Assembly (NCBI RefSeq): GCF_940670685.1
Contig: NZ_OW711693.1
Coordinates: 1,922,001 to 1,986,000 of the forward strand
DNA from: Anaeropeptidivorans aminofermentans
Lineage (GTDB): Bacteria > Bacillota > Clostridia > Lachnospirales > UBA5962
DNA: 64,000 nt
Reading direction: 5' to 3'
Shown here: positions 595 to 60,172 of the stretch, piece after piece
How the letters are laid out: the number at the start of each line of letters is the position of its first letter
Numbering within the stretch: the first letter of the stretch is position 1
Position numbers and translations under genes: made by a program
Notes under the pieces: model-generated
What the model was told of the DNA's origin: nothing
Seen by the model: the letters and a program-made list of their open reading frames with translations, nothing else
Database searches by the model: none

Positions 595-1161
595 AATTGA
601 TTCATCCTCCAAAATTTTTAAAAATATATTGTTTCATGAGCGTAGGCTTTACAAATACATTTCTCTACGTGAAATGTATTCATATTATAAGCTTATAAGG
701 TATAGTGAAACAAATTAATTACAGTAACAAAAACCATATATTTTATACTCAGTAAACCTAAAAACACTTACAACTAAGCTAGACGAGAGTCCCTTTATGG
801 TCAACAAACTTCTTTTTATCTTGTTGATTGTGAATGGCTTAAATATAGGGTTTTTATATATTAAGCCGTTTATGAAAAATAGGCTTTTGTTACTCCTTTA
901 ATCTTGTTTTACTTTAAATAGGAAAAATGCTGTTACCATTTAATATTAAGAACCTGATTTTACTCCTATAACTTACTATGATATTCTATCAGTTTTAACT
1001 ATTTAACTCCAATGTTATTTTGAACCCTATGGAACAAAAATAAGGCAAATATAATCAAACATTTAATATACTCCCCCTATTCTTTTATTTTCTGCTTCTC
1101 TAAACAACATATACGCATATGCTTAAATAAATACTGATAAAATTATGATTTTTGAAAATTT
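595..1161. repeat. intergenic region with dispersed hairpin repeat (family A copy)
   Basis: No gene is visible. At 640-700 there is a GAAATGTATTC-type palindromic piece resembling repeat family B. From about 701 (TATAGTGAAACAAATT, then CAGTAACAAAAACC) to about 914 lies a degenerate copy of repeat family A. Its internal stems include a GGCTTAAATATA / TATATTAAGCC hairpin at about 835-875. The rest is AT-rich, with no supported promoter or small ORF. Confidence 0.6.
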
Positions 1162-5478: not shown

Positions 5479-5690
5479 TATTATTCGCTTATACTTTGTG
5501 TTATAATCATAGTTTTTGCTCATACATTTCCCAAAGGAAATGCATTCATGAATAAAATTAAATAAGCTTAATTTTATTATTTGCCTATGCGTTGTGTTAT
5601 AATTATAGTTTTTGCTCATACATTTTCCTTTAGAAAATGTATTCGTGACTAAAATCAGATAAAATCTGATTTTAGTCATATTATATCAGA
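5479..5690. repeat. family B hairpin repeats, two tandem units
   Basis: Two related units of roughly 100 bp lie head to tail. Each contains GTGTTATAATYATAGTTTTT, then GCTCATACATTT and a short palindrome (ATTTCC/GGAAAT in one, ATACATTTTC/GAAAATGTAT in the other). The second ends in a perfect 15-bp stem at 5646-5660/5664-5678, TGACTAAAATCAGAT pairing with ATCTGATTTTAGTCA across AAA. The minus-strand reading frame through it only translates the repeat. Confidence 0.7.
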
Positions 5691-5849
5691 AATATTTAAA
5701 TTTTTCTTTGTTTAACGAAGATGAAATAAAAATGTAATAATATTAAATATTTTGGAATACTCAACCAGTTTTTAATTGGAAGCTCTAAAATCATGATAAA
5801 ATAAATATAAGATCATTTTCTGGACATACTATAAAAAGCTTCTATAATT

Positions 5850-21777: not shown

Positions 21778-23082
21778 CTATTTATTTATTTTCATATTCA
21801 TTCCGTAAATGGTGTTTAAGGTGCATTGTTTTTTTAAAATAACGGCATACAGTTCTTTCAATACGGTATCGTTTTTAAAGTTTACGAGATTATTTACAAG
21901 CTCTCTTGTGGATTTATTTTCATATTCTACTGCAAGATTAAGCCCGCTTTCTAAATTCGGCGTATTCGCTATTTTTCTGTCTTCGGCTTTAAAGTCTCTT
22001 CCATAATTTATTTTATGGAGATTAGATAATGTTTTGCTGATTTCCAAGCTGTCTTTACTGATGCTTTCAAGCTCCTTGGCTAAATCATAATCCGTTGCTT
22101 TAGATGACAGATGCTTATAAAAGTCTGATGCATTTTTTTCGTTTTGTATGTGAAGGGCAAGGATATTATCCTCTTGCCTTTCTTTTTTATCTTCAGTATT
22201 TTCTTTTGAAGGACTATTCTGCACAGTATTAGACCCAGGAGAAGACCCTGATGTAACAGGCACAGGGTTTACTGCACTTCCTAAAGAGGAAGGAAAAGGA
22301 TTTATTCCTGCTCCTGAAGCAGCAGGTACAGGTGAGCTAGCAGGCGGATTAGCAGGCGTACTTGGAAGTGATACGCTTCCGCTTGGCTCCTTGTATCTGT
22401 TTTCTGCAATACTTTTTTGAATTTCTTTCATTAATTCCGGTGTTACAGGTTCAAAACTTACCATTCCGTCTTGCTGATTGTTGTTTCCCGAAGGATTTGC
22501 CTGTTGGGGCATAGGGTTTTGCACTTGAGGGAAGCCTTGCTGGGGCATGGGATTCTGCACATGCGGAAAGCCCTGTTGAGGCATAGGGTTTTGTGTATGC
22601 GGAAAGCCCTGCTGTGGCATAGGATTTTGCGCATGAGGAAAGCCCTGTTGAGGCATGGGGTTTTGCATTTGAGGAAAACCCTGCTGTGGCATGGGGTTTT
22701 GCATCTGTGGAAAGCCCTGCTGAGGCATGGGGTTTTGCATTTGAGGAAAACCCTGCTGTGGCATGGGGTTTTGCATCTGAGGAAAGCCCTGCTGAGGCAT
22801 AGGGTTTTGCATTTGAGGAAAGCCCTGCTGTGGCATGGGGTTTTGCATCTGTGGGAAACCTTGCTGAGGCATAGGGTTTTGAGCTTGGGAAGGCGGTGTC
22901 TGAGGCCTTTGATTATGCATAGGAGCCTTCTCGTATCCCGGGGGAGCTTTTATTCCTTGTGTAGGCATATTAATATTATTTGGCATATTTTGTCTTTGGT
23001 TGAGTCCTCTTTTTCCGAATAATATAGCAAAGGGATTAACGAAGTTCATATTCCTCTGCTGATCACTGAATCTAAAGGCCAT
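21778..23082 (-). CDS. protein with 12-residue PMPQQGFP repeats and C-terminal ferritin-like helical domain
   Basis: About 434 residues. After a short N-terminus (MAFRFSDQQRNMNFVNPFAI), eleven near-perfect copies of QNPMPQQGFPQM (last two positions vary: QM, HA, HT, HV, QV) occupy about residues 70-200. A Pro/Ser-rich linker follows, then about 130 helical residues starting ALHIQNEKNASDFYKHLSSK that resemble ferritin-like/rubrerythrin helices. I see no complete pair of ExxH metal motifs, so the fold may be kept without di-iron chemistry. The ATG at 23082 has GAGGTG upstream. It is convergent with the RDD gene, stop codons about 10 bases apart. Function unknown; a surface or spore-coat role is possible. 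Confidence 0.75.
   Translation of the reverse strand: MAFRFSDQQRNMNFVNPFAILFGKRGLNQRQNMPNNINMPTQGIKAPPGYEKAPMHNQRPQTPPSQAQNPMPQQGFPQMQNPMPQQGFPQMQNPMPQQGFPQMQNPMPQQGFPQMQNPMPQQGFPQMQNPMPQQGFPQMQNPMPQQGFPHAQNPMPQQGFPHTQNPMPQQGFPHVQNPMPQQGFPQVQNPMPQQANPSGNNNQQDGMVSFEPVTPELMKEIQKSIAENRYKEPSGSVSLPSTPANPPASSPVPAASGAGINPFPSSLGSAVNPVPVTSGSSPGSNTVQNSPSKENTEDKKERQEDNILALHIQNEKNASDFYKHLSSKATDYDLAKELESISKDSLEISKTLSNLHKINYGRDFKAEDRKIANTPNLESGLNLAVEYENKSTRELVNNLVNFKNDTVLKELYAVILKKQCTLNTIYGMNMKINK
22498..22890. repeat. 36-bp in-frame tandem repeat array, 11 units
   Basis: Eleven 36-bp units encode the PMPQQGFP repeats. Units alternate between two subtypes (GTGGCATGGGGTTTTGC and GAGGCATGGGGTTTTGC), consistent with expansion by a 72-bp dimer. 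Copy number is likely to vary between strains. Confidence 0.9.
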
Positions 23083-23210
23083 ATAATCCACCTCTATCTT
23101 TTATTTTATATAAGCATGTACCTTAAAAAATGATTCACCATAATAAATTAAAGTATTTAATTTACTTATATGATATTCAATAAATTCCTATATGACACTT
23201 TTATAGTCAA

Positions 23211-23580
23211 TATAGTAAATTTCTTACAAAGAGGTAACAAAACCCCTATTTATTAAAGACTGAAAACACGAATTCCCTTCAGAAACAGCAGGTTTTTGCA
23301 TCTATAGTAAATTTCAAATTAAACAGTAATAAAAATCGTATATTTTATGCTTAGTGAACCTGGAAACACTTACAGGGAAACTGTTAAAGTGTTTTCAGGC
23401 GAACGCCCCCTTATAGCCAACAAAGATATTTTAATCTTTGTTGGCTATAAATGGCTTAAACATAGGGAGTTTATATGTTTAAGCCGTTTATGAAAAATAG
23501 ATTTTTATTACATCCTTCAGTAAAATTTACTATAAGTGAATATAGGTTTTTGCCCCTGTTTGATTTTGAATTTACTATAA
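23211..23580. repeat. family A composite: one full three-hairpin copy with flanking partial copies
   Basis: TATAGTAAATTT occurs at 23211 and about 23302, and inverse ends occur at about 23536 and 23580. The core (about 23302-23536) holds three hairpins. The first is CCTGGAAACACTT/AAGTGTTTTCAGG. The second is TATAGCCAACAAAGAT/ATCTTTGTTGGCTATA. The third is GGCTTAAACATA/TATGTTTAAGCC. The same core in inverted orientation is at 45.57-45.81 kb. The whole gap 23083-23669 has no gene. Confidence 0.8.
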
Positions 23581-28607: not shown

Positions 28608-28685
28608 TTTCTCCCCCTCCTTTGATAGTATTCTTTATTGATTTATGAAAATATATACGCCAAAAACGATATTTTGTATGATTTA

Positions 28686-28783
28686 TACTAAGCGAACTTA
28701 AAAATTATATGAGTGTAAGCAAATAATTTTTAAGTGAGGGTATTTTTATCGTTAAGAAACAAGCTTTCGCGTTTATTAACGAT
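28686..28783. repeat. two-hairpin module of repeat family A
   Basis: After TACTAAGCGAA, a perfect 12-bp stem CTTAAAAATTAT/ATAATTTTTAAG is followed by TGAGGG and a second stem ATCGTTAA/TTAACGAT. The same order with different arm sequences occurs at about 60.07, 34.58 and 23.36 kb. Confidence 0.7.
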
Positions 28784-28798
28784 AGAATATTAAAATTA

Positions 28799-34386: not shown

Positions 34387-34860
34387 TAGTAAATTTAAAG
34401 TTACGCGGCAGCAAAGCCGTATTGTTTACCCAAGCTCAAAAATGTGTTTTAAAAGAAGTATAACTAATGGTTTTTTGTAAAACTAACTTTATTTGATTTT
34501 ATATTAAAAGTCTTATAAGTTGTTGTAGTATAAAGGCAATTTCACTATGTTTCCGAATGAAATCCGTACTTTTATACGAAGCAAACTTGGAAAAGGATAT
34601 AGGCGTAAGCTTGCAACCCTTTTTGAGTGAGCGTTTTCTTATGGTTATCAAACTTATTTTTGATTGGTAATGATGCGCCTGCTGGGAATAGGCTTTTATA
34701 GTAAATTTAAAGTTAAACAGTAGCAAAGCCGTATATTCACACAGGTTGAAAAATGTACCGTTTCCGAAGGAAATCCGTATTTTTGAGCCTGATGGGAATA
34801 GGCTTTTGCTACTTCTTTATATAAAATTTACTATAGCTGCTTATTTAATAATAAATTTAC
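34387..34860. repeat. two adjacent family A elements
   Basis: The first begins at 34387 with TATAGTAAATTTAAAGTTAC and carries an internal hairpin module (CTTGGAAAAGG / CCCTTTTTGAG). The second, about 34697-34835, is a clean 139-bp copy with TATAGTAAATTTAAAGTTAA at one end and AAATTTACTATA at the other. The whole 597-base gap before uvrA holds no gene. Confidence 0.75.
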
Positions 34861-44303: not shown

Positions 44304-44659
44304 ATTCTATTGATTAAAGTTAAATTTATTATAATTGACTATATAAACTTGTGCTTTGATAATTTTCAAGTTTCCTTCGTTATGAGGAAAAACTATGATT
44401 AAATAGGTATAAACCTAAGCAGAGCTTAAATTATTCATGAATATCTTTCTCGCCAAGAACCTATGGCAGAATTTACGCTTATGATAGAATATGACTAAAA
44501 TCAGATTCTTCTTGATTTTAGTCACGAATACCTTTTCTGAAGGAGAATGTATTCTTAAAAACTGCAATTATGATATAATATTTACTCCCTTTAAGGCATA
44601 TATATTAAAAGAATGACAAGCTAAAATTAGTCTTTGTATTATATGCCTGGAGGCTCATA
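44304..44659. repeat. intergenic region with family B hairpin repeat
   Basis: At about 44480-44582, GACTAAAATCA/TGATTTTAGTC is followed by a GAATACCTTTTC/GGAGAATGTATTC palindrome, the same pair and order reversed as at 5.6 kb. An inverted TATAGTCAATT end (AATTGACTATA) occurs near 44333. The spoIIM promoter is expected after 44590; TATGATATAATAT near 44570 may hold its -10 box. Confidence 0.6.
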
Positions 44660-45313: not shown

Positions 45314-45572
45314 TTTTGAAAAATTATTGCAAAACTTGTTTGTTATAGAAATTTTCATATAAGATAGCAGCGGATGCCGTAAGTATTCCCCCAGGGGGCC
45401 TCCTTTCCTGCAGTAGAGATTTGCACTGCTATTTCAATTTAAATTAACAATGCTATTGTTTTATAACTATCGGGAGACACTCAGATAAAAACTGCTTGTA
45501 AGCTTATACTGTGTCTTTTTTCATATTCACCAAGTATAAAATATAGACTTCAGTAAATTGAAATCGGCATAA

Positions 45573-45810
45573 GACAGTAAAATAGTTTTAAGGCAGGAAC
45601 AAAAACCTATTTTTCATAAACGGCTTAATTTAATATAGTAGAAACGCTTATATTAAGCCATTCATAATCAACAAAGATTAAAATATCTTTGTTGACTATA
45701 AGGGGGCGTTCGCCTGAAAACACTTTTACAGTTTCCCTGTAAGTGTTTCCAGGTTCACTAAGCATAAAATATACGATTTTTGTTACTGTAATTAAACTAT
45801 TTTACTATAG
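45573..45810. repeat. family A element, full three-hairpin copy in inverted orientation
   Basis: Reverse-complemented, it matches the 23302-23536 copy along its whole core, including GTGTTTTCAGGCGAACGCCC. The middle stem differs: the first arm has TATAGTCAAC instead of TATAGCCAAC and the second arm changes in parallel, so pairing is preserved. The 711-base gap 45278-45987 has no gene; a partial copy of the ends lies at 45540-45560. Confidence 0.85.
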
Positions 45811-58328: not shown

Positions 58329-58456
58329 TATAGTAAATTTCAAATTAAACAGTAATACAAATCGTATGGTTTGAATGGCTCAACATAGGGGTTTTATATG
58401 TTTAAGCCGTTTATGAAAAATGGATTTTTATTACATCCTTGGGTGAAATTTGCTAT
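58329..58456. repeat. family A element, 128-bp copy lacking the first two hairpins
   Basis: TATAGTAAATTTCAAATTAA, ACAGTAATACAAATCGTAT at the left and TTTTTATTACATCCTTGGG, TGAAATTTGCTATA at the right. Only the third hairpin (GGCTCAACATA / TATGTTTAAGCC) is kept. Confidence 0.8.
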
Positions 58457-58468
58457 AAAACTAATTTT

Positions 58469-60044: not shown

Positions 60045-60172
60045 CTTTCTGAATTATATATTTTATACTAAGCGAATCTTAAAAATGTACAAACATAAGC
60101 TTGCAAACAGTTTTTTAAGTGAGCGTTTATGTATGGTTAACAAACAAATTCTTATGTTTGTTAACCATACGA
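60045..60172. repeat. two-hairpin module of repeat family A
   Basis: After TACTAAGCGAAT, CTTAAAAA/TTTTTAAG is followed by TGAGCG, then GTATGGTTAACAAACA and TGTTTGTTAACCATAC, a perfect 16-bp stem. It is the same order as at 28.69 kb with different arms. It lies between gltS and ftcD, so it is probably transcribed with the operon. Confidence 0.75.

Follow-up and report, generated by a model that had tools for sequence, protein, structure and literature searches.

Organization of the 23.3-kb Locus

The window analyzed here is a stretch of 64,000 nucleotides, positions 1922001–1986000 of the single-contig, 3.76-Mb genome of Anaeropeptidivorans aminofermentans. At 23.3 kb it contains a 228-bp element between two TAs, which belongs to a dispersed family (family A) and is lodged in an element of a second type (family B). 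The features concerned are the following:

23303–23534, plus strand: family A element with terminal inverted repeats (TIRs) TAGTAAATTT...AAATTTACTA and flanking TA at 23303–23304 and 23533–23534
23359–23399, plus strand: hairpin 1 of family A (CCTGGAAACACTT...AAGTGTTTTCAGG), from the fold and a pair table of 30 copies
23411–23450, plus strand: hairpin 2 of family A (TTATAGCCAACAAAGAT...ATCTTTGTTGGCTATAA), from the same two sources
23453–23485, plus strand: hairpin 3 of family A (GGCTTAAACATA...TATGTTTAAGCC), likewise from the fold and the 30-copy pair table
23211–23579, minus strand: outer family B-type element hosting the nested family A copy, in halves 23211–23302 and 23535–23579
701–917, plus strand: degenerate family A copy, found by sequence match
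45573–45809, minus strand: second family A copy (L022), from the subfamily whose TIR is TATAGTAAAATA; its BLAST match spans 45590–45810 and the right end was placed by eye
58329–58458, plus strand: family A copy without the interior, found by sequence match
34697–34835, plus strand: family B element, near-palindromic, 139 bp, with the same TIRs as family A, found by genome matches

A preliminary description had recognized a three-hairpin element here, with limits at 23302–23536. The hairpins hold up, but the actual ends are 23303 and 23534. Locus L003 with 20-base flanks is predicted, for this one copy, to form three hairpins that a helix of the terminal repeats encloses (-93.8 kcal/mol). The inverted recurrence of the 23.30–23.54-kb core at 45.57–45.81 kb and the degenerate recurrence at 0.70–0.91 kb, both proposed earlier, were confirmed by sequence matches. 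Genome-wide, family A has 40 main matches that are 75–100% identical (40 of 530 first-look candidates were scored); the search returned 69 matches altogether, those beyond the 40 main ones being short.

When the flanks of the 23.3-kb copy are joined at one TA, they match the reverse complement of the family B copy at 34697–34835 over its full length. Identity extends to 99 of 139 positions, against a mean of 39.5 and a maximum of 52 in shuffles; the joining TA is a reconstruction, and the B copy used for comparison has TG at this point. Because the flanks align with family B end to end, the locus is read as an element within an element.

The 23.3-kb element adjoins an ORF on the minus strand (21778–23091) that contains a 36-bp tandem repeat (22428–22967, eleven overlapping registers). 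Another dispersed repeat forms an inverted pair in the window, at 5592–5691 and 44479–44578 (100 nt, 82% complementary).

Terminal Repeats and Target Site Duplication

The TAGTAAATTT ends are common to families A and B, and the ends of BOX elements, too, begin TATACT. Family B has 40 main matches genome-wide at 91–100% identity (40 of 513 candidates scored). A search with the 12-base TIR, allowing at most one mismatch, gave 547 + 552 matches compared with 68 + 74 for the reversed control, an excess of 957 ends. If two of the excess ends belong to each element, the genome carries a heavy load of small elements, in the order of 480.

Duplication of TA upon insertion of family A is seen at two sister copies, L005 and L008. 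Both match L136, where their flanking repeat is present in its empty form, at 92% and 97% over 162 bp, the empty site having a single TA. The search for such sites was made with 58 A and B copies, 14 of which had a match spanning the junction and 2 of which were exact across it. Short size, high copy number, and the lack of a transposase gene are all found, as in MITEs. The elements thus agree with MITEs in these features, in their TIRs, and in the TA duplication; a parent transposase sharing the TIRs was not found in the searches that follow. PF13358 had no match in the own genome (the control was found in 3 of 14 genomes), and NF033545 gave weak matches in 3 of 7 genomes, none of them above cut-off, which weakens the case for an IS630-type parent. 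Among 17 TIR-bounded ORFs from sampled stretches, no transposase was recognized by eye. Two of the sub-cut-off NF033545 matches were also read by eye: the 316-aa ORF of L302 in genome G135 was taken for a transposase of integrase-like type, whereas L303, near position 1305497 of the own genome, consists of tandem ORF pieces that read like IS3-type transposases.

The element was unmatched in plasmid and phage collections. A scan of genome contigs for the own-genome module, from which own-genome records were possibly excluded, gave no match, and a non-exhaustive search of the literature found no title describing these elements.

Module C in the Own Genome

The core of hairpins 1 and 2, consisting of TTTATACTAAGCGAA, stem 1, AAGTGAGCG, and stem 2, is referred to as module C. 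A model built from 25 copies (R1) gave at least 144 matches in the own genome at E≤0.01 when 150 of its 4137 candidates were scored. The analyses below used 134 of the 144 matches, leaving out the 10 weakest (E above approximately 1.3e-4). TIR-like ends were found on both sides of 32 of these best 134 copies, on one side of 42, and on neither side of 60, the solo copies. Copies in the window are:

28681–28784, plus strand: module C, solo, with no TIR-like ends nearby (R1 E=9.0e-14)
34570–34675, plus strand: module C with a TIR-like end on the left only (R1 E=2.6e-19)
45435–45541, minus strand: module C adjoining the second family A copy (R1 E=3.8e-10), absent from the preliminary description
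60061–60169, plus strand: module C with a TIR-like end on the right only, by a loose test (R1 E=4.8e-16)

The modules at 28.69, 34.58, and 60.07 kb had been thought to keep TACTAAGCGAA and GTGAGCG around arms that are wholly different but still paired. Both motifs are kept at 60.07 kb only; the module at 28.69 kb has AAGTGAGGG and the one at 34.58 kb has TACGAAGCAAA. The arms are not wholly different, as the single model R1 matches all three modules; arms that differ altogether and still pair were found only in relatives from other families. Module C is an old MITE lineage in its own right. From a by-eye reading of the alignments, family A appears to hold a diverged module C, and some family B-like elements appear to hold an inserted copy.

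The solo copies (n=60) have no consistent orientation relative to genes: 26 are antisense to both neighbors, 17 are sense to both, 10 lie between convergent and 6 between divergent genes, and 1 is undetermined. Copies with TIR-like ends on both sides do tend toward convergent gene pairs (14 of 32 cases), and an ORF of at least 90 aa is overlapped by 6 of the 134 copies. In L118 (1717–1864), a tRNA gene is found directly downstream of a solo module C copy, and a sub-threshold Rfam match (S774) overlaps the tRNA start.

Relatives in Other Bacterial Families

The relatives drawn for comparison included no second genome of the own genus. Across 39 genomes, the own genome included, R1 had matches in the own genome and in G030, with two in the latter. 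An improved model (R2; 34 sequences and a hand-drawn structure) had matches in 7 of the 392 genomes compared within the order, namely the own genome, G030 from a second family, and five genomes of the genus g65 from a third. In a sample of 391 genomes from the class, R2 found the own genome only, at stricter filters by which weak matches were possibly lost.

The g65 element is 103 bp long including both TAs and is composed of TATAGTAAGCG, stem 1, TGAGC, hairpin 2, and ACTATA or CGATA. Its ends are TAGTAAGCG on one side and TAGTGAACG or TCGTGAACG on the other. The stem arms are unlike those of the own genome and the architecture is retained, so that one hairpin architecture is found across three bacterial families with the arms replaced. 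A pattern scan for the g65 element returned 60 stretches from metagenome bins of Bacillota, some of the bins carrying ruminant gut in their titles; at least one of these stretches, L247, is something else. Among 60 g65 copies with readable ends, our counts cover the 53 of exactly 103 bp, which represent 31 alleles.

Comparison of the empty site L248 with the filled sites L257 and L288 shows flanks matching at 97.6% (42 bp) and 100% (124 bp) and an insert of 101 bp with a TA on each side, where the empty site has a single TA. The TA duplication of module C is thus taken from this relative in a related genus rather than from own-genome copies. The underlying search, in which 47 g65 copies were queried, gave one clean empty site and one copy inside another copy. 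One metagenome bin of g65 has a host repeat in which a given TA is unoccupied in L248, whereas in L257 and L263 that TA holds copies of two different subfamilies. In L219, L221, and L234, the 5´ part of the element is kept and is followed by another 3´ part with its own hairpin (AACGTCAAACGC...GCGTTTTGACGTT), a replacement that looks like modular exchange.

Paired Changes in the Stems

Covariation is widely regarded as the strongest indication of a functional RNA that sequences can give. In the pair table of 30 family A copies, the C-G to T-A change noted earlier in stem 2 is real, with C-G in 22 copies, T-A in 6, and T-G in 1. Two-sided changes are likewise observed in stem 3, e.g., A-T in 19 copies and T-A in 4, or C-G in 23 and A-T in 2. 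In the alignment of 34 sequences, 86.2% of cells are paired, a share inflated by the structure having come from the consensus of the same sequences. Both sides are changed in 58 cells, compared with 21.6 when columns are shuffled and no more than 28 when the partners are slid.

On the tree of the 134 own copies, there are 44 compensatory changes with both sides altered on a single branch, where scatter would give 21.5 (sd 4.6, maximum 35 in 300 simulations) under a null that assumes 60% transitions. These branch counts are based on 34 pairs, obtained from 37 consensus pairs by dropping 5 uncertain ones and adding 2 pairs in stem 2. The 31 g65 alleles have 5 such changes vs. 0.2 expected (maximum 3 in 5000 simulations). 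Double transversions, which are not bridged by a G-U step, make up 21 of the 44 paired changes in the own copies and 3 of the 5 in g65.

A covariation test of all column pairs against a tree null, home-made and R-scape-like with base pairs taken from the folded consensus, gave no pair at alignment-wide E<0.05 with either 134 or 60 sequences. The best pair, 91–112, belongs to stem 2 and reached E=0.385 for 134 sequences and 0.71 for 60. The compensatory excess is collective, not pair by pair. The covariation check proposed in the preliminary description has a divided outcome, the excess being present in both sets of copies but no single pair being significant on the tree. Its view that plain decay does not account for the stems is supported collectively, as the paired changes exceed the scatter null in two sets and also exceed shuffled columns.

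G-U and A-C Mismatches

If a transcript mattered, it should withstand G-U breaks better than A-C breaks. On single arms, G-U and A-C breaks on the tree of 134 own copies number 205 and 194 overall and 147 and 147 on terminal branches, or 218 and 201 overall with all 37 consensus pairs included. On branches leading to at least 15 copies the ratio is 5:2. Minority cells in family A number 52 G-U and 44 A-C. Raw cells give 513:273 in the 134 copies, 180:138 in the 60 solo copies, and, by hand sum, approximately 84:54 in the 34 diverse sequences. In family A, raw cells give 171:48, with five pairs mostly G-U and none mostly A-C. Single-arm events in g65, a small set, give 11:4. Since raw cells favor G-U and new breaks are equal, the common inherited states lean toward G-U and the new breaks do not. 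The lean of the inherited states leaves room for a strand-specific constraint on the source elements, acting on RNA or on folded single-strand DNA.

At the Rfam gathering threshold, the window has no match. At E≤1, the three element loci gave one tRNA and one sub-threshold match, both outside the element.

Discussion

The three-hairpin repeat is transposable DNA, one of hundreds of small elements in this genome, and its paired changes, though real, seem to reflect the nature of hairpin DNA rather than a working RNA. The most probable explanation, in our judgment, is that the elements are MITEs in which one arm of a DNA hairpin partly serves to correct the other. Arm pairing may persist in part through the youth of the copies and in part because a change in one arm would sometimes be copied to the other by way of a DNA hairpin, either through template switching or through repair. 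Selection for the DNA hairpin may perhaps be added in elements that are still moving. A function as RNA is not needed.

Hairpin 1 has a GNRA loop in 61 of 134 own copies, and in g65 its loop is CTTG or CTCG in 52 of 53 copies. According to PMC8794818, hairpins that underwent compensatory change in one step are enriched for GNRA and CTTG loops, and both loop types are stable whether the strand is DNA or RNA; their occurrence in the elements therefore favors arm-to-arm correction of DNA hairpins. One suggestion, which we offer tentatively and with somewhat less than even confidence, is that young MITE copies record this correction: near-identical insertions would differ by paired, often double-transversion changes at a single base pair of a hairpin, beneath loops of the GNRA or CTTG type that have been linked to template switching.

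The main rival to arm-to-arm correction, which we favor, would be selection on DNA hairpins or a folded DNA strand in the source elements, where a transposase or host factor needs the fold and the copies decay neutrally afterwards. We regard this as rather unlikely, although several observations agree with it: the symmetry of new breaks on terminal branches combined with the G-U lean of inherited states (the deep branches and the five family A pairs), the architecture retained across families in spite of replaced arms, and the GCGA before and TGAGC after stem 1, which are kept in 51 of 53 g65 copies. Against this, the deep events are few, GA on both sides of stem 1 is kept in only 61 of 134 own copies, and TIRs with TA duplication suit an ordinary double-strand transposase with no need for a hairpin.

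A family of functional structured RNAs, cis-regulators or small RNAs, in which RNA selection maintains the pairing, appears improbable. It would accommodate the compensatory changes, an architecture common to three families despite different arms, the GNRA and CTTG-type loops, and the G-U lean of inherited states and of the g65 events; however, the near-equal G-U and A-C counts among new single-arm breaks in the 134 own copies, the solo copies without an orientation rule, the lack of any Rfam match on the elements, and the nested and recent insertions all argue against it. A described RNA family is rejected by the Rfam result, and a cis-regulatory RNA is weakened by the solo copies having no rule of gene orientation. 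Of the two alternatives in the preliminary description, a folded RNA or a cruciform, the RNA is disfavored by the symmetric breaks, the variable orientation, the Rfam result, and the mobility with TA duplications, and a cruciform or DNA hairpin is possible. A short protein-coding repeat, with the module reading LSELEKLYKRKLVNSFSSERLLIVNK in one frame, is rejected as highly implausible because most copies are broken: the frame is open over 26 codons in 37 of 115 copies (vs. 8 and 4 in the other forward frames), an excess due to a shared open ancestor, but it has a stop in 78 of 115 copies and in 39 of 51 solo copies, shifts between halves in both G030 copies (hand count), and belongs to a module that seldom overlaps a longer ORF.

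If arm-to-arm correction is the right explanation, repeats of this kind would give false "RNA covariation" without selection on RNA, and they would serve as a naturally occurring archive of bacterial template-switch mutation. Paired changes in transposable DNA, with new breaks that have no strand preference, are thus a warning for RNA discovery. The elements also offer a naturally occurring set of copies suited to measuring template-switch correction.

Comparison with Known Systems

In template-switch compensatory mutation, as presented in PMC8794818, both sides of a stem change at once and GNRA and CTTG four-base loops are enriched. That account concerns the histories of rRNA genes, whereas the present one concerns transposable DNA and a pattern that is observed rather than a mechanism. 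BOX, RUP, and SPRITE of Streptococcus pneumoniae are likewise short, dispersed, present in high copy number, and strongly base-paired, and BOX is modular, as are the elements described here (PMC3049150). Terminal inverted repeats and target duplications are stated there for BOX and RUP, and the authors judge the repeats to be parasitic. The likeness to BOX and RUP is one of style, drawn from their description there, and no tandem boxB-like array was noticed here. By description in the same source, the elements can also be likened to the enterobacterial ERIC and the neisserial Correia sequences, small interspersed MITE-like repeats of which the Correia elements have terminal inverted repeats (PMC3049150).
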